Source of the DNA: Anaeromicrobium sp.
GTDB taxonomy: Bacteria > Bacillota > Clostridia > Peptostreptococcales > Thermotaleaceae
Length of the DNA stretch: 64,000 nt
NCBI RefSeq assembly: GCF_025210435.1
Contig: NZ_JAOART010000094.1
Span: forward strand, 29,848 to 93,847
Direction: 5' to 3'
Program-made: the position numbers and the translations under genes
The notes under the pieces: generated by a model
Seen by the model: only the letters and a program-made list of their open reading frames with translations
Told to the model about the DNA's origin: nothing
The model's database searches: none
In this document: positions 43,166 through 64,000 of the stretch, piece after piece
How the letters are laid out: every line of letters starts with the position of its first letter
Position numbering within the stretch: position 1 is the stretch's first letter

Positions 43166-43193
43166 AAAACTGCTAATAGTCATTAGCAGTTTT
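43166..43193 (-). terminator. Terminator of the B12-controlled four-gene operon
   Basis: AAAACTGCTAAT / ATTAGCAGTTTT followed by TTTATTTTA on the minus strand, 10 bp after the stop of the SLH gene. Confidence 0.85.
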
Positions 43194-43202
43194 CATCTTT
43201 CT

Positions 43203-45599
43203 TTATTTTACAACCAAATTATGTAATTTGTAAAGTATTACAGCAGCTTGAGCTCTATTTGCATTTTCCTTTGGAGCAAACAATCCATCTCCCATACCAC
43301 TTATGATTTTTTCTTTTGCACATAGGCTTACAGAGTCCTTTGCCCATGGTGATACACTTTCAATATCTTTAAATATACTTAGTTTATCTAAACTTACCCT
43401 TTTATATCCTTTTTTCTCAAGGACTTTTGCAACAATTACTGCCATTTCTTGTCTTGTAATCTTTCCATTTGGATCAAATGAGATTTCACTTCTACCATTG
43501 ATTAAACCATGTTTATATGCTGCACCTACATAATTATAGTACCAAGCTTCTTTAGCTACATCTTCAAATGGTACATTCATATTTTCAGTAGAATATGCCA
43601 TCATCTTAGTAACTAATGTGGCAAATTCTGCCCTTGTAATATTTGCAGCAGGATCAAACCTTTTGTCTGTACGACCATTTATAACCCCTTCAGATGCCAT
43701 AGTCTCAATGGCTTCCTTTGCCCAAGGGTAGCCTTTAAGGTCAGTAAATACCTTTTTAGTTAATTTATCTACTTGTTTAGCAAAGTATTTACTAAAGTGA
43801 CTTGTTCTAAATCTTATCGTTTTTGTTACAGAGTCATATTTTCCTCCAACTTCTTCTATCTTACCATTATCATTTAAGAAGAATACCTTTACTTCCTTTT
43901 CCTCTTCTACTTTTTCTTCATATGGAATCCTAATTTCTATTGGTTCTTCAAAATTAGATACTTTTTTTTGTCCAACTCTTGCATTTAAATCTACTATTGG
44001 ACTACCCTTTGGAACTTTGTACCTTGCAAGGGCAGATAGGTCATTTCTATCTATTTTTTTTGCACTAAGAGATATTTCTTTATCCATTCCTTTGTCTCCA
44101 AAAGTTTTCTCTGTTACATTAAATTCTGCTACCTCTGTTTTAATGGTTACTTTTTTAATTCCATTTTCTCTTAAAGTTTCCATCACATTTGAAGGTAGAT
44201 TTGTTTCTATTTCTTCTTTTCCCATATTAACTACTTCTATTGTTAATTTTGCTTCAAATTCTTTAGGGCTTTCAATATTGTTATTCTTTAGTTTTTCTTT
44301 CATATCTTTTACTGTATTTACTGCTGCCTTTCCTAAATCTTTCACCTTATTTCCATCAATTTTTGCAATTACTTTCTTTTCAGCTATCTTTAATTGATCT
44401 TTTTCAATTTTTTGCGTACTAGCCTTTTCTACTGCTTTTTGCGCCGTCTGTACTGCTTTTTCTTTTATTTCTTTAGCATTTTCTTTCCCTAATTTGTTTA
44501 TTAGGCTTCCTGCAGATTCAATAACATCTCCTGCAACTTTACTTACGTCTTTACCCTTGATTTTATCCATTGCTTTAAGGGTTATTTCCATATTTTCTAC
44601 TACTGCCTCACTAAGCTGTTTTTTATCACTATCTTTCTTTAATTTCTCAGCAGATTTTATTAATGTCTTCACTACATTTATATTTTCACTTGCTAAATCC
44701 TTTGCACCTTTTTCTGTCTTAATTTTATCTACAGCCTTCTTCATTACTTGTGACATATTTTTCACATCTTTTACAAAATCTTTAGCATCCTTTTCTGAAT
44801 TGACCTTTTGTGCCTTTTCATTCAATTTAGAAGATACATCTTTTATTGCCTTTGCAATATCCTTTTCATTTGCATTTTTATTATCTAAAATATTTTTTGC
44901 TACATCAATTTGATTTTGTACTTCATCTTTTATTCCAACATTTGCTTTATGTTTATTTCTCTTATCTGTCCTATAGTCTAATGTGTAGAACCAGTATATT
45001 CTTTCTCCACCTTTTAAATCATAATTTTCTGCTGCCGTGCCAATTTGCTTATTATTAACATGAACCATCCAACCGCTGTACGGCCCTTTATCCCGTGTTC
45101 CTTGTCCATATATACTATCTACAAAACCATCTGGTTTCTTATGGATTTTACCACCAACAGCTCTCTTTGTGACAGCATATAAATTATCGCCCTCCTTTAT
45201 TTCTATTACTTTATCTGATAATATAGTTCCTTTGTATCCTTCTATTGTAATAGTAACAGTTGGTTTATTTTCAGGACCTATAGGGTCTACTTCTTTATTC
45301 TTAATAACTAGAGAAAATTCTTCTTTCTCTTCATTAATATTAATAGTTCCCTTATATTCTGCTCCTTGATTTAACGAAAAAGAAACCCTAAATTTTCCAT
45401 CTTTATCTGTATTTCCTTGATTGATATAACTAACTTTATCGCTATTAAACACTTGTATTGAAACAGGTACTTCTTTATAATTACACATTCCATCTATTGT
45501 AACAGATTCTCCTTCAACTGTACTTTTTATTTCTATTTGTGCAAAAGAAGGTATTGTCATTGCAATAACAAGCAAAATTGCCAATAGTACTTTTTTCAT
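43203..45599 (-). CDS. Secreted DUF4430 (transcobalamin C-terminal-like) S-layer-homology anchor protein
   Basis: A 798-residue exported protein, the last gene of the riboswitch operon. Signal peptide: MKKVLLAILLVIAMTIPSFA. A small beta domain (about 20-112) is shared with the neighbouring 574-residue protein. A DUF4430 domain (about 115-215) shows SGWMVHVNNKQIG and LKGGERIYWFYT. A long Lys/Glu-rich helical stalk (about 220-455) and a beta region (about 460-615) lead to three SLH repeats (about 618-798) that should bind pyruvylated wall polymer. The stalk-to-SLH part is nearly the same as in the 1824-residue protein. I infer a cell-surface anchor and possibly corrinoid-binding role. Confidence 0.88.
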   Translation of the reverse strand: MKKVLLAILLVIAMTIPSFAQIEIKSTVEGESVTIDGMCNYKEVPVSIQVFNSDKVSYINQGNTDKDGKFRVSFSLNQGAEYKGTININEEKEEFSLVIKNKEVDPIGPENKPTVTITIEGYKGTILSDKVIEIKEGDNLYAVTKRAVGGKIHKKPDGFVDSIYGQGTRDKGPYSGWMVHVNNKQIGTAAENYDLKGGERIYWFYTLDYRTDKRNKHKANVGIKDEVQNQIDVAKNILDNKNANEKDIAKAIKDVSSKLNEKAQKVNSEKDAKDFVKDVKNMSQVMKKAVDKIKTEKGAKDLASENINVVKTLIKSAEKLKKDSDKKQLSEAVVENMEITLKAMDKIKGKDVSKVAGDVIESAGSLINKLGKENAKEIKEKAVQTAQKAVEKASTQKIEKDQLKIAEKKVIAKIDGNKVKDLGKAAVNTVKDMKEKLKNNNIESPKEFEAKLTIEVVNMGKEEIETNLPSNVMETLRENGIKKVTIKTEVAEFNVTEKTFGDKGMDKEISLSAKKIDRNDLSALARYKVPKGSPIVDLNARVGQKKVSNFEEPIEIRIPYEEKVEEEKEVKVFFLNDNGKIEEVGGKYDSVTKTIRFRTSHFSKYFAKQVDKLTKKVFTDLKGYPWAKEAIETMASEGVINGRTDKRFDPAANITRAEFATLVTKMMAYSTENMNVPFEDVAKEAWYYNYVGAAYKHGLINGRSEISFDPNGKITRQEMAVIVAKVLEKKGYKRVSLDKLSIFKDIESVSPWAKDSVSLCAKEKIISGMGDGLFAPKENANRAQAAVILYKLHNLVVK

Positions 45600-45639
45600 A
45601 GTGTCCCTCCTTTTAAATTAAATGTTATATTCGAATTTG

Positions 45640-45669
45640 ACAGCTTCTCTATTAAATCAGAGAAGCTGT
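45640..45669 (-). other. Intra-operon hairpin
   Basis: ACAGCTTCTCT / AGAGAAGCTGT with an 8-nt loop lies in the 76-bp gap between the 574- and 798-residue genes. No T run follows on the minus strand, so it is more likely an mRNA stability or processing element than a terminator. Confidence 0.55.
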
Positions 45670-45675
45670 ATATTA

Positions 45676-47400
45676 CTATTTTCTAACCTTTGCACTAACA
45701 GGATCTTTTAAGAGAACATTTTGTTTCTCTAAAGTATCCCATACAAAAGCTTTTAACTCATAGGTTCCATCCACTGGAATATGTAAACTCTCACTTATAT
45801 CCCTATTTTCTCCTGCTTTAAGTTCTTCCTCTACAGCCTTATAATTGATCATCTTACCATTCGTTTTATTGTATAAAGCCAGAATTAATGTTGCTTTTTT
45901 CATTTCTCCACTTATGTTTTTCACTCTTACAATGACTTTTGCTGTATCTCCATTCTTAAAGACTTGTTCTTTCATCTTCTGTATTTCAAAATTCTTCATA
46001 AGCATTTGTTCTATATTTAACTCAATTGTATCTTGTACACTTTCATTACCTACTACTTTTGCTGTAATCATAACCTTTCCAGCTTTCTTTCCTATGACGC
46101 CTCCATCTGTATCGATACTGGCAATATTTTCATCTGAACTTTCCCAAAGTATACCCTGTGTCATAATCTCTTTATTATTTTTATCAAAAACTTTAGCTGA
46201 AAGATCTATCATTGTATTTTCTTTGATTATTTTACTTGCTAATTCTTGTATTTGAATTTTACTTGCCTTTATTGGATCTACATACTCGATTCTAAGGGCA
46301 TTATACATGGATCTTCCTTTGTATAGATCTGCTAATGCCATAAATGCTTGTTCTGTTGATTTTTCATCTCCAAATCCATTATCTTCTTTGAAATCAAGTA
46401 ATCTATCTAATATATTTTTTTCATTTTTTTCATACTCCTTAGATAAAGGATCTATTCCTACTGCTACAAGTCCTTGTATCACAGCAGAAATTGTACACGC
46501 ATTTTCTTTTCCACTCAATGTATTTTTAATATATTCAACTCCATCATTAATGGAATCATTTACACCTTGTATTTCTCTATGTTTGCCAAGTGCCATAATG
46601 GACATGGCTGTGTAATCCATATCTCCAAAGCTACCATTTTCCTTCTGGTAACTCCTTAATGCTTTTGTTGCTTTATTCACATCATAGTCTGCATCTGCCA
46701 TATCTAGTGCTAATATACTAAAGGCAACTGTTGTTGCACTATCATCCCCTTGATGAAGAATAAACTTACCTTGTTCATCTTGAGAATCTGCTAATACTTT
46801 TACATAATTTTTGCCCTTATAATCTCTTGGATTTTCTTTTGCTCCAATCAATCCTATAATGTTTCCTGCATAATCGCTGGCTTTCATATCTTCTTCAGCC
46901 ATTTGTGTTATTTTATATTTTTTCTTTATTATATCTATATCTTTTTCATTCTTACTTGCATATCTATATCCTATTGCTTCTCTAAATGTAAATTCATCAT
47001 CTTTAGAATAATAACTTCTTAATTCATTTATTGCCTCTTTAATCTTTTCTTCATTCGTCTTTTCTTCTATAATTGGTCCTTCTTCTTTTTCCGTCTTTAA
47101 TATGAAATTTTGTTTTTCTCCCTCTGTTAAAAAATATCCATTATAATCTTTATTTGATTCTAACTGGGTTTGGAATTTAAAATTGCCATTATCATCTGTT
47201 AATCCTTGATCAAAATAAACTTTTTTCTTCCCATCGTTTATTTGTACCACAACAGGTTCTTTGTTACAATCTGTTGTTCCATTGATTTTTATATTTCCTT
47301 CATTTACATTAATCTTGAAATCAATTTGTGCAAAGGAAGTCAATGTAAAGGATAATACGAATAACAGCGATAATAAAATACTACCTATTTTTCTTTTCAT
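45676..47400 (-). CDS. Secreted single alpha/alpha-toroid protein with Big_2 domain
   Basis: A 574-residue exported protein. Signal peptide: MKRKIGSILLSLLFVLSFTLTSFA. A small N-terminal beta domain (about 25-110) resembles that of the 798-residue protein. One alpha/alpha-toroid of the prenyltransferase/squalene-cyclase repeat type spans about 118-375, with the local signatures ENPRDYKGKNYV, VGIDPLSKEY and ALADLYKGRSMY. A Big_2 Ig domain (about 385-465) and a C-terminal beta domain of about 105 residues, shared with the two upstream gene products, complete it. It has no anchor of its own. It is third in the riboswitch operon and probably one half of a corrinoid-binding pair. Confidence 0.82.
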   Translation of the reverse strand: MKRKIGSILLSLLFVLSFTLTSFAQIDFKINVNEGNIKINGTTDCNKEPVVVQINDGKKKVYFDQGLTDDNGNFKFQTQLESNKDYNGYFLTEGEKQNFILKTEKEEGPIIEEKTNEEKIKEAINELRSYYSKDDEFTFREAIGYRYASKNEKDIDIIKKKYKITQMAEEDMKASDYAGNIIGLIGAKENPRDYKGKNYVKVLADSQDEQGKFILHQGDDSATTVAFSILALDMADADYDVNKATKALRSYQKENGSFGDMDYTAMSIMALGKHREIQGVNDSINDGVEYIKNTLSGKENACTISAVIQGLVAVGIDPLSKEYEKNEKNILDRLLDFKEDNGFGDEKSTEQAFMALADLYKGRSMYNALRIEYVDPIKASKIQIQELASKIIKENTMIDLSAKVFDKNNKEIMTQGILWESSDENIASIDTDGGVIGKKAGKVMITAKVVGNESVQDTIELNIEQMLMKNFEIQKMKEQVFKNGDTAKVIVRVKNISGEMKKATLILALYNKTNGKMINYKAVEEELKAGENRDISESLHIPVDGTYELKAFVWDTLEKQNVLLKDPVSAKVRK

Positions 47401-47416
47401 AATATTCTAATCTCCT

Positions 47417-49024
47417 CTACTGTATATTCAACTCTATAGGATCTTTCATATAAGAAATACCATTATCTGAATCATCCCATACAAATCCTCTTACTGTATA
47501 TTTACCTGTCTCTGGTACTAATACAGAAGCGGATAATTTTATTTCTTTTGTTGGTTTTATTTCTTCATTCATATAGCTGTGATTTATCATTTTATTGTTT
47601 TCATCATATAAACCAACCATTAGGGCAATCTTTTGTCCTTTGCTTCCTTCATTTTTTATGTTTACTTTTACAAAAGCCTCTTCTCCATTGGAAAAGTTTT
47701 GTTTTTCTATCTGCTCTATTTTTAAATCATTTTCTTTTAGAATTATTTTTTCACTCTTTGTAAATGCCTTTAAACAAACATTAGTATTTTGTTCATACTT
47801 AGTTAAATCTGTCCATTGTTCTCCATTACTACTAATAAAACTTTGGTTTTTCTTTGCCTTTGCTTTACTTGCATACTTTCCCTTTGGACTTTCAATGGCA
47901 ACAGGATTTTTACTTCCTCTTGTAGTTATCTTTACCATGACAGCAAATTTTTCCTTTGGATTTAAATCAATTTCATCTAACTCTACCGTATGATATCCCA
48001 TGTGATGAATTTTTCCACTCTTTACTTTTTCCTTATTTTTAAATGAATCTATATTATTAAAATCCCTAGAAATCCATATTTCATAAGTTGAATCTTCTCC
48101 AGTTGTATAAAAACTTACTCCACTTAATTTTTCATTTCCCTCACATTGAAAAACATTAGAAAACCAAGCCGTATCCAATGAAAATCCATATTCATTTGTT
48201 TGTCCTAGTTCATCATATTGATAGATATTATCATACTCTTGATGCTCATTACTTAAAAACACTCCATTTTCCGTCTTTCCCATATTGAAGTCATAATAAG
48301 AAATATAAAAATATCCATTTTCTGCCCATTGATTACCCCAACTGTTCTTGCAAATGAAAGCTCCATTTCCAATATGATCCTTGTTTTTAAAATTGTCTTT
48401 TGAATAATCATCGTCCCATCCTACAATAGCCACTGTATGATCGTAACCTCTTAAAGTATTGTTATTATAGGATTTTTTCTCGGAGCTGTAATGGGCATCA
48501 TCCCATTTTAAATTAGTATACACTCCACCATAATCCATAACAGCCTTTTTAATCTTATGATTATCTTTAAAATCACTTCTTTTAGGTATAAATATTACAT
48601 CTTGAACATGATAATCGGCTTTCATTATTCCTCTATTTATGGGATTTCCATAGGATGGATAGGGATCTTTTTTTTCTAGTACTGGGCCTTTGTGGCTAGC
48701 TAAATAAGCCGTTGCCATATATATATTTCCTCCATCTGTGGATTTTAAATCAAATCCATGGTGAGTTAGCATATTATTTTCTGAAAAATCTACATTTTTA
48801 TTTTCCCTAGTCTTTATACTAGATTCAAGGGAAGAAAGGGCTGCAAAAGCCCAACATCCATTAATCTTTCCTTGATCTTTAACTTCTGTTACTCTATTTT
48901 CTTTTCTTAAATCATATTTTATTGGTAAGGATTTATCTGCATAAGCTATGTTTAGTGGAGCTGTCATAAGCAAAACGAAGCTTAATACAATACTAGAGCA
49001 CCTACCTCTTTTTCTGATTTTCAT
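47417..49024 (-). CDS. Secreted papain-family (C1) cysteine protease
   Basis: A 535-residue exported protease. The signal peptide ends near AYA (about 29) and there is no long propeptide. The catalytic set is complete: Gln51 and Cys57 in QGKINGCWAF, His196 in YDHTVAIVGWD and Asn227 in CKNSWGNQWAENGYF. A lectin-like beta domain (about 255-420), as in clostridial surface C1 proteases, is followed by the C-terminal domain shared with the 574- and 2738-residue proteins. It lies 14 bp after the giant gene and 16 bp before the next, so it is under the cobalamin riboswitch. Possible substrates are the surface proteins of this operon or external B12-carrier proteins; neither is shown. Confidence 0.9.
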   Translation of the reverse strand: MKIRKRGRCSSIVLSFVLLMTAPLNIAYADKSLPIKYDLRKENRVTEVKDQGKINGCWAFAALSSLESSIKTRENKNVDFSENNMLTHHGFDLKSTDGGNIYMATAYLASHKGPVLEKKDPYPSYGNPINRGIMKADYHVQDVIFIPKRSDFKDNHKIKKAVMDYGGVYTNLKWDDAHYSSEKKSYNNNTLRGYDHTVAIVGWDDDYSKDNFKNKDHIGNGAFICKNSWGNQWAENGYFYISYYDFNMGKTENGVFLSNEHQEYDNIYQYDELGQTNEYGFSLDTAWFSNVFQCEGNEKLSGVSFYTTGEDSTYEIWISRDFNNIDSFKNKEKVKSGKIHHMGYHTVELDEIDLNPKEKFAVMVKITTRGSKNPVAIESPKGKYASKAKAKKNQSFISSNGEQWTDLTKYEQNTNVCLKAFTKSEKIILKENDLKIEQIEKQNFSNGEEAFVKVNIKNEGSKGQKIALMVGLYDENNKMINHSYMNEEIKPTKEIKLSASVLVPETGKYTVRGFVWDDSDNGISYMKDPIELNIQ

Positions 49025-49037
49025 ACGATTCTCCCCT

Positions 49038-52000
49038 TTAGTCTATATTAATAATACGAGTTGGTTTGAATAAATCTATTTCTTCTCTACTTGATAAGAA
49101 TATTTTAATCTTATATGCTCCATCTTTAGGTACTGCAAATCCTGGAGATAAAATTATCAATTCCTTACCTTCTAAAATCCTTTGTGCACTAGCTGTTTTT
49201 AATACTTTATTGTTTTCATCACATAATTGAATTTTACAAAGCATATTGCTAGATTGTTCTGTTTTATTTTTCACTTGAATTTGTAATCTTGTTTCTTCTC
49301 CCTTTGACAAATCATTATCATTTAGTATATTCATTTCAAATAAATTACTGGCTATATTATTAGTGACCTTTACCTTACAATAGGGTCTACTAATATTGAT
49401 AACTCCTTCTTTGCTTCTTGTGGCACTTATGACATATTCTCCTTCTTTTTCAAAATTTAGAGTGACCTTTCCTTCAGCATTTGTCATTTTATTTAAATCT
49501 TTTTTAAATACTTTTTCATTTACTTCTTTATACTCAATACTTGCTTTTTCTATATTTGTATCGGAACCAGAACTTGATCTACCTTTTAGTTGCAATGTAA
49601 AATTCTCATTTGGTTTAACAATGATTTCATTTTTATCAAAGTAGGAATATGTAAAATTTTCATAGTCTTCTACATAATATACACAGATATGATCACCATC
49701 ATTAATTGCGGTATTAATAAAATAATCATTTACATAATGATCATTTAGATAATACATCCAACCACTATTTGCTCCTGCACCAAATTCCTTTAATCCATTG
49801 ATATTTTTTAGCCTTGATAATTCACTTCCTGCATCAAATTTTTCTTTGTCCGTACAGTCTATGTTATTTTTTTGTAGTGCTGCAATCAATGCATTCATAG
49901 CTGTTGGATTTTCTTTTACAAGGCATCTTCCATCTCCATATATACCCATATCAAAGTTATCTACTTCTAACTCAATCTCTGGTATAATGTTATTTTTACT
50001 TCCTTCTACCCTTACCTTTACTTTCACTGATTTTTTCTCTATAACCTCTAGTGCTATCTCATGTTTCATATTGGGATTGTCTTTTAATGTTGCTTTTAAA
50101 ACTACCTTTCCTTTAGATAGAGGTTGAAGGTAGGTTTTCCCTTCTTCCTTATGTACCTTTGCAACACTCTCATGGTCCACTTCCCAATTAAAGATTAACC
50201 CTTCAATTGGATTATTTATTTTATTAAAACCTTGGGCTTTTAATTCTAGTAAATCTCCCACTCTAATTTTATCTTTATTGCACTTAATTTCTATATTTTT
50301 AATTTCTGAATCTTCTATAGTGATTTTTGTACTGGCTTTAATATCCGTATCTTTAATAGTAGCTGTAATAATTACTTCTCCTGCCTTTTTAGTTGTAATC
50401 AGTCCAGCTTCCACACTTCCTATAGTTTCATCAGAAGATGTCCATATGATAGAAGGCTTTTCTATCCAATTATATTGGTTATCAAATACAGCTACTTGCA
50501 GTTTAAGTGATTGTCCTATCAATAACTTGTTCATTTCTGGCTTTAGTATTAAAATTTTTGACATATCTCCTATATTCGTATTTCCCTCATATTTGATTGC
50601 CAGTTTTTCAAACATGGATTCATTGGAATACATATCAGCAAAAGCTGCAAAGGCATGATAAGTGGCCGTATAGTCAAACCCTCCTCCTTCAGACTTAGCA
50701 AAAGCTTTTTCATTCTCACCGATATATTTACTTTTTAGTATGCTATCTAAAACAGTTTTTCTATTTTTTATCCATTCTTTTGAATAAAGAGGGTTTACAC
50801 CATTGGCAACAAGAGCTTGAATAACCGTTCCTGTGGCAATTGGACTGTTTTTAAAATATCCTCCACCTAATTCAAAACCGCCATCATCATTTTGTTTGTT
50901 CTTTAAATAAGCTATAATCTCATTTATTTTTTCATTGACCCCTTGTATATTCTTATGATTTGCAAAAGCTGTTAAAGCTACTGCTTCCGATTTCACTTCA
51001 TCATATCCTGGCATATTCTTTTTCTTATATGGTGTCTCAATTAATTTTATTAATGCTTTTACTGCACTTTCTTTATCATATGATGCATCCGCCATATCAA
51101 GGGCAATAATTGCATAGGATAGTGATTCAATGTTATTTTTATCACTGTCACTTATAATAAATTGACCTTTATATGACCCTTCTTTCATTTGATGTGCTCT
51201 TACAATATCCACATAATTTTTTGTTTGACCTTTAAATATATCCTTCCTTGGATCGATTCCAGAACCAATTAATGCAATAATCATTTTTGTATAATGAACC
51301 GCTGTAGTTTGATGTGAATATCTTAATATACGGGCTTTCACATCTTCTTTATTCATTCCTAAAGCCACAGCTGCAGGTGATGCTAAAAATTCATATGAAT
51401 TATAACTTTCATAATGAGTTTTTAAAAATTCTATTTGAGTTTTTAATTTTTCTTTTAAAATTTCATCAGAAATGCCAGACTTAACCTTTATAGTAATTTC
51501 ATCGTATATGTCTTTATCATTTTTCAAATATACTTTTATTTTTACTGTGCCTTCTTCTAAAGTCTTCACCAATCCATTTTCCACTTTAGCTTTTTCTAAG
51601 TCACTACTTTCCCATACAAGACTTTGATTTTTTACTATATGATTGTCTTCATCGTATATAGTCGTTTTAATCTGAACTGTATCTCCTGCTACTACTTCTA
51701 TAGGCTCTTGGTTGGTGATTTCTATTCTTGCAGGTGCTCCTGCTTTTACGTATTTTATTTCATGATACATAGATGTATTATTTTTTAAATCTGCTAAAGC
51801 ACAAATTGCGTATGCAGTATGATCATAACCACCAATACCTTCTGACTGATCCGATTTAAACCCTTTTTTTCCTTTGCATTTTAACAGAGCATCTAGCAAT
51901 GTAATTTCATTTCCGTATGAATCATATTTTACCCATTCTCCTGAAAGTGGGTCTTCTCCAAGAGCTATAATCCCTTGAATCGTCAAGGATGTATTCATAC

Positions 52001-55000
52001 AACTTTCTATAAAAGCATTTTCATCTTGTTTTTCTTTTAAATACTTTTTCATCCCATTAATGGCATCCACAACACCCGTTACTTTTTGGTGCTTTGAAAG
52101 AGCTATGAGCACCCATTGTGTTCCCTCTATATCTTCTTTTTCTTCATCTTTTGTTATAGCATATATTTTCCCTGAATCTCTTTTTAATTTATTTATCAAA
52201 GCAGTAATAGCAGCTGTTTCATCGTATTTTTCCTGTGCCATATCTAATGCGATAATCGCTTTTGCTACCCACTCAGTTTCTGGATTGTCATAAAATTTAG
52301 GTTGTGCGTTAATTATTTTTTCAATATAATTTTTTCCTCTATATTCCTTTGGATTTTCACAAGCTGCTATAAGATTGATTGTATTTCTTCCTTGGCAATC
52401 TAGATTGTCTAGATCATAAATATTAAGCTTAGAAGCTATATCCTCTATATTTACCTGAATACTTCTAAGTGCCATAGAATGGATATACGCATATTCATCT
52501 TTTGTGACTAAATATTCTTTGGCAAAATTGATCCCATCATTTAGCTTTTCTTCTTTTGTTTTTCCTTGAGTAATCTCTAAGGCAATACTTCCTTCTACGT
52601 TACCAACTTCTTTACTAACAGTTGCTTTTATTGTTATCTTTCCTGCCTTTACTCCTGTCAAAATATTGTTTTCATCTATTGTTGCAGAGCCTGTTGGTTC
52701 TATAGCCCATGTTATGGATGGCTTTTGAATCACTTCTCCATCTCTATCAAGTACCTTTGCATTGATTTTTACTTTTTTTCCTGTTTGTATCGTATCAATA
52801 TTCTGTTCTACCGTTACTTGAACTATATTAGGTACAGCAGGAATAACCTTTATACTCATAGTATTTTTCACAGCATTATTGTCTTTTAGCATAGCTGTAA
52901 CCACAACAGTTCCTGCACCTATAGCTGTAAGCTCTCCTGTTTTTTCATTGATTGTCCCAATAGCTGGCTGATCTACAGACCAAACAAGCTCTTGATCTGG
53001 TATAAAATTATGATCCTTGTCAAAAACTTTTGCTGTTAAGGATAAGGTATGCCCTACCTTTAATTCTTTTTGATCATTTTCTGCATGAATCACTACTTCT
53101 GTAGCTGCTCCTTGCGTCTTTGTTGGTTTGTACATAGATTTACCCATTTTAATATCGGTAAGAGCTGCAAAAGCAAATGCTGTTGCTTTTTCTTTACTTA
53201 AAGACCCTCGTCCCTTTTTAAAGCCATTCTCTTCCTTTAGCTTTAAAAGTGCATCTAGCATGGTTGTTTTATTTCCTGCTGCATCTGTTTTTATATATTC
53301 TTGAGATAAGGGATTTTCACCTATTGCTGTAATTGTTTGAATCGTTTGTCCAATCTCTTGACAATTTGTGTCCTCATCCCAACCATTATACTGTTCTTTT
53401 AGATATGCTTTTACTTTGTTGATAATATCATCTACACCATTTATATCCTTATGATTAGAAAGAGCAATAACCGCCAAAGCAGTTTTTTCTAAATCAGGGG
53501 TATCTGACCAACTACTTCTTTTTATATATGCTTTATCCACAGATATTTTAAATTTATTTTTCAAAGCTTCTATTGCTTTATTCTCATTATAAGATGCTCC
53601 TACCATGTCTAATGCAATCATAGAATGAGCAATACAATCTGCCTCATCATCAGAAGACCACTTATAACCTCTAGCATCAAAGTGTCCTTCTTCTGTTTGT
53701 GAAGTTGCTAAAAAGCTTACATAATCATGACCTTGATAAGCTTTAGGATCTAATCCTGCTGATAGGAGTACCATAATAGCTTTTGCATATTGATCCGATG
53801 TTTTTCCTGAATAACCCTTTTCAAAATTCACATCAGGTAAATCTAATTTGGCTTGAATACTAGATGCATCTACTCCAGCTCTCCTTAATGCTAAAGCTTC
53901 AAGGTAATCATATTTTGTATCTTTTTCATAATAAAGCTTTAACTCATCTATTACTCTTTGGGCTTTTTGTTCATTGGTTTGTACAGGGATTACCTTTAAA
54001 TCAAAAGTCTTTGATAGTTCAAAGCCCTTTGTTTTTGCAGTAATTGTAATGTTTTTTTCGCTATCTACTGACTTTGCTGTAATCAGTCCTGCTTGGTCTA
54101 TACTAGCTATATGCTCATAAGAGCTTGTCCATTCTATTGCTTGTCCCTTCATCCATGTATCATCTTCTTCATACGCCTTTGCCATGAGGCTAAGCTTCTG
54201 ACCTACTTCTAATGTGGCTTTTTGAGCTTCCTTTTCTCCTATAAATATTTTCATTTTCTTAGGAATAACTGCAATAATCTTTAAAGATATTTCTTTTTTT
54301 ACACTCGGCTTATTTTTTACTATAGCTTTGATCGTAATGGGTTTATCTTCTACTACATCCTTTGCTGTAACAAGTCCTTCTTGATTGATACTAGCAATAT
54401 TTGTATCAGAACTAGACCATATAACCTCTTCCTCTTTTATTTCTTCTCCATCTTCTTCAAGTACTTTTTTAGAAAGCTTTAAAGTAGTTCCTTCTTTTAA
54501 TTCATTCTTTTTCCCAAGGGGAAGGGTAATCTCGATAGTATGTGGTACTCTTGCCTTTACAGCAATAGCTTTTGTAGCTGAAATCTCTGTTTTATCTACC
54601 TTTGCTGTTATTTGAACTGTTGTATCTGCATCTATTGCTTGACCTGTAACCCATCCTGATTCATCTACTACTGCCTTATTGGTAGCTGAGCTTGTCCATT
54701 TTATTTTTTTCCCTACTACTAATTTATTGTTTTCATCTAATACCTTTGCTTTTAGCTTTAGTTTTTGTCCTTCTTTTACGAAATCTTGATCCCCTATGAT
54801 TTCAATACTATGAGGAATGGTTCCTAATTCTACCTTGATTTCTTTATACATAGACTTATTTTTTACTAAATCAGAAAGCGCTGCAAAACCTAAAGCTGTT
54901 GCTTCTTGATCTACACGATATGCTGTTTTTGTTTCTTTAAAACCATTATCTTTTCTAAATGAAATCAATGCATCAAATATTGTTTTATCATTTTTAATCC

Positions 55001-57254: not shown

Positions 57255-57392
57255 TGTATGCCTCCTCTTACATAAATAAATTTGTTGTCATCCTGCCTTT
57301 ACTAGCTTTTTTTCGTAAATTGATGCCCTCCTTTTCTATTTTCTTTCCTATGTTTTTATTTGCTTCTATATTGAATAAATTTTAAAGTATAT

Positions 57393-57432
57393 AAAAAAGC
57401 CTTAACTCCCATTTGAAAGTCAAGACCCTTTT
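57393..57432 (-). terminator. Leader terminator, expression platform of cobalamin riboswitch 1
   Basis: Minus-strand GTCTTGACT pairs with AGTTAAGGC (with two G-T pairs) and is followed by TTTTTTA. It lies between the riboswitch and the giant gene, so ligand-bound RNA would favour termination. Further small hairpins lie at 57446-57466 and 57494-57510. Confidence 0.78.
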
Positions 57433-57525
57433 TATAATATGCTCAGATATCACTTACATGATATCGGTTACATACTTTACCGCCTTGTATTTTACCTTTC
57501 CTCGGAAGGTTTATACACAAGTACT

Positions 57526-57680
57526 TAGGCAGGTCTCCTGACTTATGGATTAACGTTTGCCTTTCACCTTCCCAGTTTCCCAGTGGCATATTGAAAGGTC
57601 ACTCCCCATTTACAGTGGCCGGACCGTTCGTGATTTTCACACGATTCCCTTTTAATCTTTGATTTGCATCAAAGAACCTA
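57526..57680 (-). promoter_or_regulatory. Cobalamin riboswitch 1
   Basis: On the minus strand the conserved core reads GGTCCGGCCACTGTAA, then GGGGAGTGACC, GCCACTGGGAAACTGGGAAGG and the B12 box GTCAGGAGACCTGCC. The terminal helix is formed by TAGG and CCTA. A small hairpin, TTTGATGCAAATCAAA, follows the 5' side. It lies about 270 nt upstream of the 2738-residue gene and controls the four-gene operon. Confidence 0.95.
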
Positions 57681-57869
57681 AATACATTATTATTTAATTT
57701 TTAACTTTTCTAAACAATAGAAAAACTACAAACCAACTCTTTTTTTAGAGTGTCAGTCTATAGACTATATATTTAATCTATAATTTCTCTAGTTCTCTAC
57801 TCAACTCTAATTAAGTTTTTTAAGCTTCTATCAAAGCATGTACGATGCTAAACTTTTTGCGACCTTTTT

Positions 57870-57898
57870 ATATTACATGATTCTGTATAATATGTCAA
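57870..57898 (-). promoter_or_regulatory. Promoter of the B12-controlled surface operon
   Basis: Minus-strand TTGACA (57893-57898) and TAATAT (57870-57875) with 17-bp spacing. It lies just after the terminator of the upstream gene and about 190 bp before riboswitch 1, leaving an AT-rich leader of about 180 nt with no recognisable gene. Confidence 0.75.
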
Positions 57899-57907
57899 TT
57901 TTTTCAT

Positions 57908-57953
57908 AAAAACAGAAAAATCCCTAGGATTTCCCCAGAAATTTTTCTGTTTG
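57908..57953 (-). terminator. Terminator of the 1824-residue protein gene
   Basis: AAACAGAAAAAT / ATTTTTCTGTTT encloses a short loop and is followed by TTTTTATG on the minus strand, two bases after the stop codon. Confidence 0.82.
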
Positions 57954-57954
57954 C

Positions 57955-60900
57955 TTATTTAATTAATTCATATACCTTATAAAGAATCACTGCGGCTTGT
58001 GCTCTATTTGCATTTTCTTTTGGTGCAAATATACTTTCTCCCATACCACTTATAATATTTTCTTTAACGCATAGACTTACAGAATCCTTTGCCCATAATG
58101 ATATACTTTCAGTGTCTTTAAATACATTAAGGTTATTTAGACTTTCCTTTGTATATTCTTTTTTCTCAAGAACCTTTGCAACAATTACTGTCATTTCTTC
58201 CCTTGTAATATTTCCATTAGGATCAAATATATTGTTGCTTCTGCCACTAATTAGACCCTTATTATGTGCTGCAACTACATAATTGTAATACCAAGCCTCT
58301 TTAGCTACATCTTCAAATGGTACCTTCATATTTTCAGTAGAATATGCCATCATCTTTGTTACTAATGTGGCAAATTCTGCCCTTGTAATATTTGCAGCAG
58401 GATCAAATTTTTTGTCTGTACGACCATTTATAACCCCTTCAGAAGCCATAGTCTCAATGGCTTCCTTTGCCCAAGGGTAGTCTTTAAGATCAGTAAATAC
58501 CTTTTTAGTTAATTTATCCACTTGTTTGACAAAGTATTTACTAAAGTGAATTGTTTTAAATATTATCGTTTTTGTTACAGGGTCATATTCTCCTCCAACT
58601 TTTTCTATCATTCCATTGTCATTTAAGAAAAATACCTTTACTTCTTTTTCCTCTTTTACTTTTTCTTCATATGGAATCCTAATTTCTATTGGGTCTTCAA
58701 ATTTAGATACTTTTTCTTGTCCAACTCTTGCATTTAAATCTACTATTGGACTACCTTCTGGGATTTTATATCTTGCAAGGGCAGATAGGTCATTTCTATC
58801 TATTTTTTTTGCACTAAGAGATATTTCTTTATCATTTCCTTTGTCTCCAAAAGTTTTCAGTGTAACATTAAACTCTGCTACCTCTGTTTTAATTGATAAT
58901 TTTTTAATTCTATTTTCTCTTAAAGTTTCCATCATATTTGAAGGTAGATTTGTTTCTATTTCTTCTTTGCCCGCATCAACTACTTCTATTGTTAATTTTC
59001 TTTCAAATTCTTCATCACTTTCAATATTATTATTCTTTAGCTTTTCTTTCATATCTTTTATTGTATTTACTGCTATTTTTCCTAAATCTTTTACCTTATT
59101 TCTATCAATTTTTGCAATTACTTTCTTTTCATCTACCTTTAATTGATCTTTTTCAATTTTTTGCTTACTAGCCTTTTCTACTGCTTTTCGCGCCGTCTGT
59201 ACTGCTTTTTCTTTTATTTCTTTACAGTTTTCTTTTCCTAATTTCTTTATTAGGCTTCTTGCAGATTCAATAACATCTCCTGCAATTTCACCTACTTCTT
59301 TACCCTTGATTTTATCCATTACTTTAAGGGTTATTTCCATATTTTCTACTATAGTTTCACTAACCTGCTTTTTATCACTATCTTTCTTTAATTTCTCAAC
59401 GGCTTTTTCTAGTGTCTTTACTACATTTATATTTTCAATTGCTAAATCCTTTGCTCCTTCTTCTGTCTTAATTTTATCTATAGCCTTCTTTATTACTTGG
59501 GATATATTTTTCACACATTTTACAAAGTCTTTAGCATCCTTTTCTGAATTGATTTTTTGTGCCTTTTCATTCAATTTAGAAGATACATCTTTTATTGCCT
59601 TTGTAAGATCCTTTTCACTTGCATTTTTATTATTTAAAATATTTTTTACTGCATCAATTTGATTTTGTACTTTATCTTCTGTTGCATACTTTGATCTATC
59701 TGTATTTCTTGAATCTGTCTTATAGTCTGATGTGTAAAACCAGTGTATATTTTCTCCACCCTTTAGTTTATAACTGTCTACTCCTGTTTGTATGTTTTTA
59801 CCATTCACATGAATCATCCATCCACTGTTTATACCTTTATCAAAGGTACTCTGACCATCTATACTATCTACAAATCCATCGGGTTTTACATTGTAAGATT
59901 TACCATTTTCATCAAGTATTCTCTTTGTCACATCCCATAGGCTTTCACCTTTTTTAATTTCTACTTCCTGTTCTGATATAATGATCCCTTTATATCCTTC
60001 TATGAAAATAGTTACCTTATCTCCTTCTTCTATTCCATTATTATCTATATCCCCCTCTTTTAGTGGTATAAATAATTTATCATATCCTTCACTACTTATT
60101 TTAGCTCCCGTATACATGGACTCTTTCTTATGCAAATCAGCTAAAGCTGCGAAAACCTGTTCTGTAGCTAAATCATTTCCGAAAGTATCTCCACTTTTAT
60201 ACTTAAATAAGGAATTTAACATTGTTTTTCCACCAACACTCCATTTACTTACTAATGGATTTTCTCCCACTGATACAAGTCCCTGTATTACCGTTGCAAG
60301 GGTATTAACATTTTTATTCATTATATTTTGCTTTTCATTAGAAAGCTTTTCTACTGCTTTATCGATACATTTGTTTACACCTACTATATCTTTATGCTTA
60401 TAAAGTCCTTTCATAGACATGGCTAGTGTGTCTATATCCTTATATGGTCCAAAAGTTCCATCATCATTTTGATAGTTCATCAATGCTTTTACTGCATCTT
60501 CTACTCTATAATCTGCCTTTGCCCTATCTAGTGCAATAATACTAATAGCAGATACAGTTGGATAATCATCATATTTTCCTAATATAAACTTCCCATCTTT
60601 AGTTTGTAATTGGACTAATCCATCAACAAAATCTTTTCCTTTATAATCCCTTGGATTTTCTCCTAAAGCTATTAAACCAAGTATAGCATTCGCATATTCT
60701 GAAGCAGTTTTTGGAACAGCTACTATTTTATGTTTTTCTTGTATTGTTTTTAAATCCTCTACTAACTCATTACTCGTATGCCTATAACTTAAAGTTTCTG
60801 TAATATCAAATTCCTTGTGATTTTTATAATACTTTCTCAAATTATTTACAGTATTCTCTATAACTTGTTTGTTAGATACATTCTTTTGAATAGTCAATTG

Positions 60901-63429
60901 TAAAGATTCATTTAAATGACTAACCCCTTCAACTTGTGCAGTAATTGTGACTACCCCTTCTTTTATAGTCTTAACTACTCCTGTATTTTCATCTACTGTT
61001 GCAACTTCTTTATTACTTGTATACCACTTTATGGATTTTCCTTTTAATTCCTCGGCTCCATCAAATACCTTTGCCTCAAGCTTTATTGTATCTCCTACTG
61101 GAAATAAATCTGAAGTTTCTAATATTTTTATACTTCCCACGTTGAAATTTTGTGTACACCTTATTAATTCAACAAATTTCCCATCTTTATCTTTTTTATA
61201 TATCTTTCCTATATATTTTCCTAAAGGTACATCAATATATGCTTCCCCATTAGAATCTGTAGTATAAGTTTTATCATTAATTTCAAGAGTTGCCCCTTCT
61301 ACATTTTTAATATTATCTTTGATAGTTGTCTTTACTATAATTTTTTTATTATTTCCATCGTTTTTGTATTCTAATACAGGAAGTGTTGTTCCTTTAATTA
61401 CATGGAATAATACTTCATCTAAATCATGAATCTTAAGAATAGTTACACCTTCAGAGGCTGCTTTTGTTTCTCCATTTTTAGCTATATATATTCCCCAATA
61501 GGCTTTATCCTTATCCCAATTAGGCTCTACCCCTAGTATGGATTTTATCATTCCACCTTCAATTTTTATAGCTTTTTCTCCTACACCAGTTTCTAATAGG
61601 TCTAATGCAGTCTTTTCACCTGTAACCGGCAAATCCTTTTCGTATAAAGTCTTATCTGTTCCTTCTATTCTTAGTTTTATTCTTTTAAATTGTTTTTTTA
61701 CTATTATTTTGCATACATCTACAAAACCGCCATCTTCTGTTGTCATAGTAATGGTAGCTTCTCCAGGATTAACACCTATAACATATCCATCCTTAATGGT
61801 TGCTACTGATTCATTGTTACTCTTCCAAGATACATTTTTATTTGGTGCATTTTCAGGATAATAATTGATTTCTAATTTTGTTTTTTCTCCTACATGCATT
61901 GCTTTTTTGTAATCCTTCAAGCTAGCACTAGTCATTGCATCCACATCTAATTTTGACACCTTAATGGTACAACTATCAGTAAAGCCTCCATCTTCTGTTT
62001 CAACAGTAATAACTGCTTGCCCTTCACTAACACCTCTAACTGTTCCGGTAACATCTACTGTTGCAATATTGTTTTTATTTGATTTCCATATTAGCTTTCT
62101 ATTTGTTGCATTTGCTGGTTTTACTTTTCCACTTAATTTAGCTTCTCTTCCAACATAAAGTTCTAAACTTTTTTGTTCTAATTCAATACCTGTAACACTT
62201 TCTTGTGATCCTGATTCTTCTTTTACTTTTAAAGTAGTATAATAAGTCTGCTTGTCAACAGTTACTTGCTCAATATATATACCCTTTTCTTTAGTACTAG
62301 CTTTAGATCCCCACTGAGCTGATTTTTTTACTTCAGCTCCGTTTGACTGAATCAAAATAACTTCTGTAGGTAGTTTTTCTCCCACAATTACTTCTACATC
62401 TTTCACCTTTACAGATTTTACTCCTGATGAATTCTCTGGTGCAATATCTACTATTCCTCTAACTTCTGTTGATAATTCACCGAAAGTTCCATTTAACTCT
62501 CTATATGCTGTAGAAATCTTTACAAAATCTATTCCATCTAAATTGATATGCTTTCCATCTTCATCTACTGCCCAGTCAATATCAATAGATCCACCACCAT
62601 AACCCTCTACTTCTGGTGTATATGGATTATCTGGATTTTTCGTATAATCGGAAAGTCCACCTTTTATTCCCTTTACATCAGCATATCCATATGCAGGATT
62701 TTTGTCATTTATCTTTATACATTTAACAGTATATTTTTCTTGTGGAATAAATGAAAAATCCTCACCTTTTGGATAATGTATTTTATCAGGTGCTTTACCA
62801 CTTGCTCCTTGATTATCCTCCCATTTTACTTGAGTATCATTATAATAAGTTATTTCATAATCTTTAATGGTATCTTTGTCATAATAGGCAGAACCTGCTA
62901 TATCATACCAAGTATCATCTGCTTTCCCATTGCCATTTTCATCTTTCATGACTGCTATTGCTCCTGGTTCACCATATCCAAAGAAAGCATTTCCCAATAC
63001 ATTAAAATCTACCCCATATGGATTCTTTTGATCATTTTTTATGGTATGATCAAATCCGTATACTACATATCCTCCTAAGGCACCTAAAGAAACCATTTTA
63101 GTACTATAACTATCTGTTTCTATATTTTTTAGAATTTCCTTTGCTTTTTTAATACTTCCATACCCACCACTATACGCATATTGACCTGGTGCAGGCATAA
63201 ATTCTATTAATTTAGTTTGACAGCTGTATACAGCTTCACTTACAACTTCTTCTTTTTCTTCTAATAAATATTTATCTGATGATTCACTCTCAGACTTACC
63301 ATATACAGAATTACCTACAGTTTCTTCTGCATTTACAGTAATTGGTCCAAATGAACCAAATCCTACTGTAGTAAATAACATTGTAAAAATAATAAGTAAA
63401 GATAAAAGCTTATTCCATTTCGTATTCAT
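57955..63429 (-). CDS. S-layer-anchored multidomain protein: B12-locus-type N-terminal domain, toroid, two DUF4430 domains, SLH
   Basis: An 1824-residue exported protein. The chosen ATG at 63429 follows GAGGAG by 7 nt and gives a proper signal peptide (to about VNA-34); the ORF extension to 63483 lacks such a site. Order: a domain with FMPAPGQY, VMKDENGNGKADDTWY and NPDNPYTPEVEGYGGG (about 65-335); two Big_2 (about 410-577); DUF4430 (about 580-683); an Ig-like and a Big_2 domain (about 686-843); one toroid (about 846-1120); DUF4430 (about 1136-1236) with SGWMIHVNGKNIQ; helical stalk and beta region; three SLH (about 1642-1824). It forms its own transcription unit under riboswitch 2. I infer a corrinoid-capturing wall protein. 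Confidence 0.88.
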   Translation of the reverse strand: MNTKWNKLLSLLIIFTMLFTTVGFGSFGPITVNAEETVGNSVYGKSESESSDKYLLEEKEEVVSEAVYSCQTKLIEFMPAPGQYAYSGGYGSIKKAKEILKNIETDSYSTKMVSLGALGGYVVYGFDHTIKNDQKNPYGVDFNVLGNAFFGYGEPGAIAVMKDENGNGKADDTWYDIAGSAYYDKDTIKDYEITYYNDTQVKWEDNQGASGKAPDKIHYPKGEDFSFIPQEKYTVKCIKINDKNPAYGYADVKGIKGGLSDYTKNPDNPYTPEVEGYGGGSIDIDWAVDEDGKHINLDGIDFVKISTAYRELNGTFGELSTEVRGIVDIAPENSSGVKSVKVKDVEVIVGEKLPTEVILIQSNGAEVKKSAQWGSKASTKEKGIYIEQVTVDKQTYYTTLKVKEESGSQESVTGIELEQKSLELYVGREAKLSGKVKPANATNRKLIWKSNKNNIATVDVTGTVRGVSEGQAVITVETEDGGFTDSCTIKVSKLDVDAMTSASLKDYKKAMHVGEKTKLEINYYPENAPNKNVSWKSNNESVATIKDGYVIGVNPGEATITMTTEDGGFVDVCKIIVKKQFKRIKLRIEGTDKTLYEKDLPVTGEKTALDLLETGVGEKAIKIEGGMIKSILGVEPNWDKDKAYWGIYIAKNGETKAASEGVTILKIHDLDEVLFHVIKGTTLPVLEYKNDGNNKKIIVKTTIKDNIKNVEGATLEINDKTYTTDSNGEAYIDVPLGKYIGKIYKKDKDGKFVELIRCTQNFNVGSIKILETSDLFPVGDTIKLEAKVFDGAEELKGKSIKWYTSNKEVATVDENTGVVKTIKEGVVTITAQVEGVSHLNESLQLTIQKNVSNKQVIENTVNNLRKYYKNHKEFDITETLSYRHTSNELVEDLKTIQEKHKIVAVPKTASEYANAILGLIALGENPRDYKGKDFVDGLVQLQTKDGKFILGKYDDYPTVSAISIIALDRAKADYRVEDAVKALMNYQNDDGTFGPYKDIDTLAMSMKGLYKHKDIVGVNKCIDKAVEKLSNEKQNIMNKNVNTLATVIQGLVSVGENPLVSKWSVGGKTMLNSLFKYKSGDTFGNDLATEQVFAALADLHKKESMYTGAKISSEGYDKLFIPLKEGDIDNNGIEEGDKVTIFIEGYKGIIISEQEVEIKKGESLWDVTKRILDENGKSYNVKPDGFVDSIDGQSTFDKGINSGWMIHVNGKNIQTGVDSYKLKGGENIHWFYTSDYKTDSRNTDRSKYATEDKVQNQIDAVKNILNNKNASEKDLTKAIKDVSSKLNEKAQKINSEKDAKDFVKCVKNISQVIKKAIDKIKTEEGAKDLAIENINVVKTLEKAVEKLKKDSDKKQVSETIVENMEITLKVMDKIKGKEVGEIAGDVIESARSLIKKLGKENCKEIKEKAVQTARKAVEKASKQKIEKDQLKVDEKKVIAKIDRNKVKDLGKIAVNTIKDMKEKLKNNNIESDEEFERKLTIEVVDAGKEEIETNLPSNMMETLRENRIKKLSIKTEVAEFNVTLKTFGDKGNDKEISLSAKKIDRNDLSALARYKIPEGSPIVDLNARVGQEKVSKFEDPIEIRIPYEEKVKEEKEVKVFFLNDNGMIEKVGGEYDPVTKTIIFKTIHFSKYFVKQVDKLTKKVFTDLKDYPWAKEAIETMASEGVINGRTDKKFDPAANITRAEFATLVTKMMAYSTENMKVPFEDVAKEAWYYNYVVAAHNKGLISGRSNNIFDPNGNITREEMTVIVAKVLEKKEYTKESLNNLNVFKDTESISLWAKDSVSLCVKENIISGMGESIFAPKENANRAQAAVILYKVYELIK

Positions 63430-63524
63430 ATAAAGTCTCCTCTCTTTTGTGTCTATTTCATTATAGTATTCCTCTAATACCATTTTTATCTATTTACCCA
63501 CCCCCTTTTATTTGTTAAAAAATC

Positions 63525-63560
63525 GAAAAAACCTTGTCTTCTCATTGAAATCAAGGTTTT
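63525..63560 (-). terminator. Leader terminator, expression platform of cobalamin riboswitch 2
   Basis: Minus-strand AAAACCTTG pairs with CAAGGTTTT and is followed by TTCGATTTTTT. It lies between the riboswitch and the 1824-residue gene, matching the layout of the first riboswitch. Confidence 0.8.
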
Positions 63561-63655
63561 AGTTTGTTTTTCATAAAAACATTTATAATTTATTTATAAA
63601 GTAATCATTTAAACTACACTTTCCTTAACCCAAGAAGAATTTATGTGCAACAATT

Positions 63656-63809
63656 TAGGTAGGTCTCCTGACTTATGAATCATTACTTCCTTTCACCTTC
63701 CCAGTTTCCTAGTGGCATATTGAAAGGTCACTCCTCATTTACAGTGGCCGGACCGTTGGAGATTTTAACTCCATTCCCTTTTCATATTTGATTTAAATCA
63801 AATATCCTA
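63656..63809 (-). promoter_or_regulatory. Cobalamin riboswitch 2
   Basis: The minus-strand core GGTCCGGCCACTGTAA, GAGGAGTGACC, GCCACTAGGAAACTGGGAAGG and the B12 box GTCAGGAGACCTACC parallel riboswitch 1 almost base for base. The TAGG/CCTA terminal helix and the palindrome ATATTTGATTTAAATCAAATAT follow the same plan. It lies about 230 nt upstream of the 1824-residue gene. I could not find a convincing promoter between it and the group II intron end. Confidence 0.95.
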
Positions 63810-63861
63810 AATAGCTTATTATGAAATTGTAAACCCATAGTCCTATGTCTAATTTTCACTT

Positions 63862-64000
63862 GTAGAGTAAAATGGTGGATTTGATTTATTCTCTTCCACC
63901 ATCTCCTCATCAAACCGTACGTGAGGTTCTCCCTCATACGGCTTTCCGATGTTCTTCTTCCATCCGCATTACGAGTTTTGAACAATATATTTTAAGCCAA
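63862..64000 (-). mobile_element. Group II intron, 3' end (domains V and VI), continues beyond the window
   Basis: On the minus strand 63945-63912 folds as domain V: AAAGCCGTATGAGG, GNRA-type loop GAGA, then CCTCACGTACGGTTT with a two-base CG bulge and the AGC triad. Domain VI (about 63902-63872) is the hairpin ATGGTGGA / TCCACCAT. The sequence then runs into TTTTACTCTAC, a common 3' end, so the splice site is near 63862. The intron-encoded reverse transcriptase, if present, lies outside the window. Confidence 0.85.

Follow-up and report, generated by a model that had tools for sequence, protein, structure and literature searches.

The window analysed here is a stretch of 64,000 nucleotides from Anaeromicrobium sp. 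(contig NZ_JAOART010000094.1, here C48). Its minus strand carries two cobalamin riboswitches followed by five genes, P0005 to P0001, whose products combine alpha/alpha toroids, DUF4430 domains, a BtuH-like domain, a protease and S-layer homology (SLH) motifs. Very probably these genes encode a Gram-positive cell-surface apparatus for corrinoid capture, which is induced by low B12. Judged from sequence matches and structure models, corrinoid binding by the predicted capture proteins is likely. A preliminary description, made from the sequence alone, had proposed exported proteins with toroids, DUF4430 domains and SLH anchors; this stands for the set of five, but SLH motifs are confined to P0005 and P0001, and P0003 has neither a toroid nor a DUF4430 domain.

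The toroid-DUF4430 pair and the BtuH-like domain of P0005

P0005 is the only protein of the window in which a toroid is directly followed by a DUF4430 domain. This pair (amino acids 865-1260) was modelled with AlphaFold from 13 aligned sequences (pLDDT 90.1, pTM 0.71). A Foldseek comparison of such a model with human transcobalamin (PDB 2BB5) and intrinsic factor had been named in the preliminary description as a check on its transcobalamin-like interpretation. When the model was compared with the PDB, ranks 1 to 14 (E 1.3e-11 to 1.2e-8) went without exception to transcobalamin, haptocorrin or intrinsic factor, and the next match followed at E 5.4e-5. The isolated transcobalamin beta domain 5no0 was also found, with a TMt of 0.70. 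In VIA-align, among the 50 matches listed, only B12 carriers span both domains. In addition, the DUF4430 profile matches transcobalamin-1 across almost the entire domain (E 0.0071). Together with an independent BtuH fold in the same protein, these results support the interpretation.

At the level of sequence the toroid is more distant. For none of the five window proteins does the eukaryotic cobalamin-binding protein model (Pfam PF01122) appear in the list of family matches, which extends to E 0.1, and the toroid profile, compared with the PDB sequences up to E 1, found no transcobalamin. The toroid is therefore linked to transcobalamin through its fold and the domain order. Vertebrate transcobalamin, intrinsic factor and haptocorrin share with P0005 the domain order, both domain folds and a short linker, whereas identity in structural alignments is 13-18 %, and the window system has repeated toroids without a partner domain and a wall anchor in addition. 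The order itself recurs: across 102 toroids and 106 DUF4430 domains, a toroid is followed by DUF4430 within 60 amino acids in 15 cases, and the reverse order occurs in two. According to the model, the pair is predicted to work like the transcobalamin family, and we do not file it as a member.

The second cobalamin-related fold of P0005 was overlooked in the preliminary description. Amino acids 88-351 (264 residues) match PDB entries 8blw_B (1.8e-33) and 7biz_A (3.2e-31) by phmmer, and this sequence match identifies the stretch as homologous to BtuH, a cobalamin-binding domain. As given in the portions of PMC8941943 and PMC10404256 used here, 7BIZ is Bacteroides thetaiotaomicron BtuH2 with cyanocobalamin and 8BLW holds BtuG1, the C-terminal extension of which is a BtuH domain. 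Four of the eight cobalamin-contact residues of BtuH2 are identical in P0005, namely Q333, N399 and F401, which line the nucleotide loop and the lower side of the ligand, and Y510. Like the Bacteroides proteins, P0005 is a predicted surface protein from a putatively riboswitch-regulated locus with Ig-like neighbour domains; in contrast to them it is an SLH-bearing Gram-positive protein with BtuH fused to DUF4430 and toroid, and there is no outer membrane or BtuB.

BtuH was matched in eight of 99 genomes in the search of relatives and in eight of 398 in the search of the phylum, the own genome counted in both. For 17 BtuH loci of the phylum the position of DUF4430 was determined: it shares the open reading frame (ORF) with BtuH in 12, belongs to the next gene in two, lies within 5 kb in one, is a weak match in one and is absent in one (G206). 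Three of these loci come from G414 and two from G412; matches on G414:C57 and G412:C19 and the second one on G414:C136 were left out. A cobalamin riboswitch was found at most 5 kb upstream of BtuH in 7/17 loci, and contigs ending nearby may hide some more. The mBio paper, in the part used here, lists three Firmicutes species with btuH homologues, one of them near a predicted ECF-like transporter. Two single observations may be added. G414 (loci L112, L113 and L121) has six BtuH matches on four contigs, some without DUF4430 in the same ORF, and at L122:11106-11593 (minus strand) tandem cobalamin riboswitch matches (33.0 and 40.8 bits) lie upstream of a BtuH-DUF4430-SLH gene.

Gene units of the window and their occurrence in relatives

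The features of the two units are listed in Table 1. That two cobalamin riboswitches precede two transcription units, as had been proposed, is borne out by RF00174 matches above the gathering score of 31.5 bits. The proposed span, which ended at 63809, was right in including riboswitch 1 but stopped short of its end at 63825. Unit 1 codes for P0005, and unit 2 for P0004, P0003, P0002 and P0001, ending at 43203. In both units a hairpin with a U tract sits between the riboswitch and the first gene. The hairpin of unit 1 was spotted by eye only, as the terminator scan did not report it, and 5/200 shuffles fold equally well. Directly after the P0005 gene lies a terminator-like site (57913-57937), and a promoter-like site (57898-57870, 10/12) lies ahead of unit 2; with seven found and 4.6 expected, promoter-like sites there are not above chance. 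Behind P0001 no terminator-like site was found on the minus strand; the hairpin at 43166-43193 reached a score in plus-strand orientation only.

Table 1. Features of the two riboswitch-headed units, in window coordinates (aa, amino acids; HMM, hidden Markov model).
Feature	Position	Strand	Basis
Cobalamin riboswitch 1	63641..63825	-	RF00174, 113.7 bits
Terminator-like hairpin 3' of riboswitch 1	63528..63560	-	By eye; -11.1 kcal/mol, z -2.45, U tract
P0005, 1842 aa: leader peptide, BtuH-like, Big_2, DUF4430, toroid, DUF4430, linker, 3 SLH	57955..63483	-	Pfam, phmmer, home-made HMM
BtuH-like cobalamin-binding domain, P0005 aa 88-351	62431..63222	-	phmmer vs PDB 8blw_B, 7biz_A
DUF4430-like domain 1, P0005 aa 602-697	61393..61680	-	Home-made HMM, 55 bits, domain itself a seed
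Alpha/alpha toroid, P0005 aa 878-1129	60097..60852	-	Toroid alignment, home-made HMM, AlphaFold model
DUF4430 domain 2, P0005 aa 1157-1254, 28 aa past toroid	59722..60015	-	Pfam PF14478, 1.2e-15; fold match
SLH motifs of P0005	57961..58536	-	Pfam SLH, 8.4e-35, 3 stretches
Cobalamin riboswitch 2	57511..57696	-	RF00174, 121.4 bits
Terminator-like hairpin 3' of riboswitch 2	57393..57432	-	Scan: 18 pairs and U tail; -19.7 kcal/mol, z -6.4
P0004, 2738 aa: leader peptide, five toroids interspersed with Big_2, C-terminal DUF4430, no SLH	49038..57254	-	Pfam, home-made HMM
Toroid 1 of P0004	56199..57014	-	Alignment, home-made HMM
Toroid 2 of P0004	54831..55637	-	Alignment, home-made HMM
Toroid 3 of P0004	53115..53954	-	Alignment, home-made HMM
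Toroid 4 of P0004	51750..52535	-	Alignment, home-made HMM
Toroid 5 of P0004	50592..51437	-	Alignment, home-made HMM; best Pfam Prenyltrans stretch
DUF4430 of P0004	49662..49976	-	Pfam, 1e-6; home-made HMM
P0003: papain-type (C1) protease, lectin-like domain, leader peptide	47417..49024	-	Pfam Peptidase_C1, 1.3e-30; Lectin_like, 1.7e-52
P0002: leader peptide, toroid, Big_2	45676..47400	-	Pfam, alignment, home-made HMM
Toroid of P0002	46288..47037	-	Alignment, home-made HMM
P0001: leader peptide, DUF4430, linker, 3 SLH	43203..45599	-	Pfam, home-made HMM
DUF4430 of P0001	44973..45257	-	Pfam, 1.2e-9; home-made HMM
SLH motifs of P0001	43206..43787	-	Pfam SLH, 5.2e-42, 3 stretches

The count of seven toroids and four DUF4430 domains in the preliminary description was reproduced with an alignment and with home-made HMMs, for which domains of the window and P0007 served as seeds and loci of relatives as the extension set. 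Of the seven toroids, P0004 has five, and P0002 and P0005 have one apiece; 19 columns of their alignment are invariant, and an identity of 27-43 % to the first copy shows strong divergence. The DUF4430 domains of P0004 and P0001 and the second one of P0005 have evidence beyond these HMMs and the alignment: Pfam places DUF4430 above its curated cut-off (23.8 bits) in these three proteins, and it did not report the first DUF4430-like domain of P0005. The other domains in the count are called by the HMMs and the alignment. Big_2 was found by Pfam in P0002, P0004 and P0005, and among the five proteins Prenyltrans reaches the cut-off in P0004 only. SLH in P0005 and P0001 and Peptidase_C1 in P0003 likewise reach their Pfam cut-offs. 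The leader peptides of P0001, P0004 and P0005 were seen by eye, as was the probable start codon of P0005, ATG at 63429 and not at 63483.

The host genome contains 11 cobalamin riboswitches. Four head toroid/DUF4430 genes (two in the window, two on contig C109), three head BtuF- or BtuC-type ABC-transporter genes, one a DBI_PRT (cobT-type) gene and one an Asp-Al_Ex-type permease gene together with an acetyl-CoA hydrolase/transferase-type gene (L021, C74:9500-19500); two have no evident target gene behind them (L018, C55:1-6000; L020, C74:50000-59000). The first riboswitch-headed unit of C109 (L016, C109:1-17000) codes for an exported DUF4430 protein, three proteins without a Pfam match, a MoxR AAA+ protein, DUF58, BatA and VWA proteins and a toroid protein. 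This MoxR/VWA gene set is also present in G009, G012, G016, G057 and G078, and a cobalamin riboswitch lies just 5' of its first gene in all of these but G057, where none is directly there. An AAA+/VWA machine beside proteins resembling B12 carriers suggests energy-driven assembly or cargo transfer.

Each of the four DUF4430 matches of the host genome belongs to a gene run that follows a cobalamin riboswitch on the same strand, which is more than a chance association. In the search of relatives the domain itself occurs in 49 of 99 genomes (own included), with as many as 12 matches in one genome. Nine DUF4430 stretches hold 25 cobalamin riboswitches versus 1.49 expected, where the stretches were picked for DUF4430 and are not all independent (two are from the host genome, one of them the window, and G020 and G031 are one genus), the genome sizes of G012, G014, G020 and G078 were rounded for the expectation, and a 5.9 kb stretch of G048 without a riboswitch was left out. 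Counted over the 150 DUF4430 and 150 riboswitch matches listed, which makes the figures lower bounds, at least 15, 35 and 54 of the 150 DUF4430 matches lie downstream of a nearby cobalamin riboswitch within 5, 10 and 20 kb, respectively. An equally near riboswitch on the opposite strand was found for 0/150 among the matches listed.

A 100-kb stretch of G012 reaches seven cobalamin riboswitches, the highest number in any island of the relatives, and has 24 toroids, all on a single strand. A scan of named genomes gave eight loci, including Marinisporobacter sp. McD2.5, 'Lutibacter sp. B2', Tepidibacter, Anaerophilus, Lysinibacillus alkalisoli and a metagenome-assembled genome (MAG) of the Syntrophomonadaceae. 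Pairing with a riboswitch also occurs in L. alkalisoli, the Syntrophomonadaceae MAG and UBA1047; in L. alkalisoli fewer than 100 bases separate the riboswitch from an ORF with DUF4430, SLH and three matches to the toroid. Of seven loci compared in this respect, four have a cobalamin riboswitch; the ORFs of L086 and L087 are truncated by the locus start, and for L089 one lies just outside the locus (in L118, judged by length to be on the same contig). When four proteins of relatives were analysed with Pfam, DUF4430 and SLH passed the cut-off in all four and the toroid family in one; the toroids of relatives therefore rest on the home-made HMM. By a rough rule, an export-like N-terminal stretch is present in 109/114 ORFs of the system versus 138/344 other ORFs.

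The C1-protease gene P0003 lies between P0004 and P0002, and in G012, G014, G016, L085 and L086 such a gene is likewise flanked by a multi-toroid gene on one side and a toroid/DUF4430/SLH gene on the other; none was found in the remaining stretches of relatives examined with domain HMMs. Its catalytic Cys stretch is visible by eye in P0003. Over six C1 proteases the active-site patterns found His in five and Asn in one, and Cys in none with a badly written pattern. In a tree, each P0004 toroid is closest to the toroid at the same position of its counterpart in G014, a member of the window's family, so the toroid array predates the split between the window species and G014.

P0002 (toroid) and P0001 (DUF4430-SLH) are separate ORFs (43203-47400, minus strand), and in G012, G014, G016, L085 and L086 there is one fused protein. 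A split of the fused toroid-DUF4430-SLH protein was considered and is not favoured by the tree, where the closest toroid to that of P0002 is the last one of G012:73217-78853; there, too, a separate DUF4430-SLH protein (797 aa) comes next.

As to the surroundings, the 20 other window ORFs scanned are housekeeping-like genes or contain domains of unknown function. Directly upstream of riboswitch 1 lies the end of a Group II intron RNA (63862-63946, minus strand, RF00029, 52.5 bits). The window ends where contig C48 ends, so a repeated intron may be what breaks the assembly here. On C109, too, a toroid gene (L016:1-1797) is cut by the contig end, so C48 and C109 may be neighbours.

Cobamide synthesis and other explanations

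The general idea of such a system is already in print, as bacterial B12 scavengers of this kind were predicted by Burroughs et al. 2007 (PMC1796856). In the portions of that paper used here, bacterial transcobalamin-type domains fused to toroids are described, B12 scavenging is proposed and a transfer to animals is suggested; the genes are linked to CbiO/CbiQ transporters, and the hosts are usually without key B12-synthesis enzymes. The SLBB (DUF4430-type) proteins of these authors resemble the window proteins in being exported, Gram-positive and composed of a toroid joined to a transcobalamin-type beta-grasp domain, and in having Ig-like domains, paralogues within one operon and a predicted role in B12 scavenging.

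Several points weigh against corrinoid capture as the function of the window proteins. In the model, the angle between toroid and DUF4430 differs from that in transcobalamin. In the BtuH-like domain, the contact residues H476, W511, W577 and L578 are changed. The host encodes CbiD, adjoined by cbiA, cbiP, cbiB, cobD, cbiE and cbiT above the NCBIfam cut-off, and cbiC beside cbiD is just below it; contig C114 ends soon past cbiT. With many synthesis genes, the host differs from the usual hosts of Burroughs et al. and does not seem to fit their rule on missing enzymes. Capture when B12 is scarce, as the preliminary description put it, thus need not mean auxotrophy. Because many cobamide-synthesis genes are present, the apparatus may save the cost of synthesis, or recover or hoard cobamides.

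In the last case corrinoids would be bound mainly for hoarding, for denial to neighbours or for recovery of the host's own leaked cobamides, and not mainly for uptake. The cobamide-synthesis operon is consistent with this, as its 12.8 kb stretch (L109, C114:32000-44776) contains no cobalamin riboswitch, unlike the transporter and surface-protein genes, and so is the high number of binding modules in the window and in G012. However, three of the 11 host riboswitches precede BtuF/BtuC-type importer genes, suggesting a shared uptake purpose, and we consider this explanation improbable.

Slightly less probable still is that the transcobalamin-like fold was reused for another ligand (a metal, a glycan or another cofactor), the proteins being regulated by B12 to serve when B12-dependent pathways fail. 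The ligands of the beta-grasp superfamily are diverse, according to the part of PMC1796856 that treats them, and both the divergence of the toroids and the changes in half of the BtuH2 contacts would agree with a change of ligand. Against it, two unrelated folds with solved B12 complexes share one riboswitch-headed protein, and BtuH and DUF4430 occur in one ORF in most of the BtuH loci.

DxDD and CGEQ are motifs used for terpene-cyclase and thioester readings, respectively. That the toroids are terpene-cyclase-type enzymes or thioester adhesion domains was set aside as very improbable: terpene cyclases are the top VIA-align matches of the toroid and complement thioester domains appear lower down in Foldseek, but DxDD is found in 0/7 window toroids (2/102 overall) and CGEQ in 0/102, and the two-domain fold match goes to the B12 carriers.

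Proposed mechanism and significance

For corrinoid capture induced by low B12, the following course of events is proposed. When intracellular adenosylcobalamin is low, the terminators of the riboswitches would not form, and the capture proteins would be synthesised and then exported. The SLH proteins would attach to the wall polymer. Corrinoids may then be gripped between toroid and DUF4430 in the fashion of transcobalamin, and may also be lodged in the BtuH pocket, before being handed inward to BtuF-type binding proteins. The P0003 protease could serve the processing or turnover of the large proteins, or the release of bound B12.

A wider joint reading is tentative and less likely than not. 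Clostridia and some Bacilli would possess a complete, so far unrecognised Gram-positive surface machine for cobamide capture, encoded in islands that measure about 80 kb and contain as many as seven cobalamin riboswitches. It would comprise SLH-tethered arrays of transcobalamin-like modules merged with a Bacteroides-type BtuH, a protease for maturation and, headed by a riboswitch, a MoxR-DUF58-BatA-VWA membrane machine that has DUF4430 and toroid proteins of its own and moves or releases the cargo. From this system the animal B12 carriers would have branched off.

The arrangement had been called undescribed. This does not hold for the principle, given the 2007 prediction, but a term search of PMC1796856 found riboswitch, SLH, MoxR and BtuF all absent from its text, and its portions used here do not mention BtuH or riboswitch islands. 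As far as the literature searches go, the riboswitch islands, the SLH anchoring, the BtuH fusion and the linked MoxR/VWA operon are new. The open-access literature gave no account of the riboswitch-SLH-BtuH-DUF4430 combination, of transcobalamin-like bacterial proteins with a riboswitch or of a cobalamin riboswitch with an S-layer homology surface protein, an absence that is weak given the open-access scope.

As stated in the part of PMC8941943 used here, cobamide acquisition is less well known in Firmicutes than in Bacteroides. That intrinsic factor and transcobalamin are of bacterial origin had, as far as we found, rested on one prediction from 2007. Encoded behind B12 riboswitches, P0005 is a ready test protein for both, as it joins a toroid-DUF4430 pair modelled like the animal carriers to a domain whose homologue has been solved with B12 bound. 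If binding were shown, the questions of acquisition in Firmicutes and of the origin of the carriers could be addressed by experiment, and a likely function would follow for many 'DUF4430' proteins of Bacillota.

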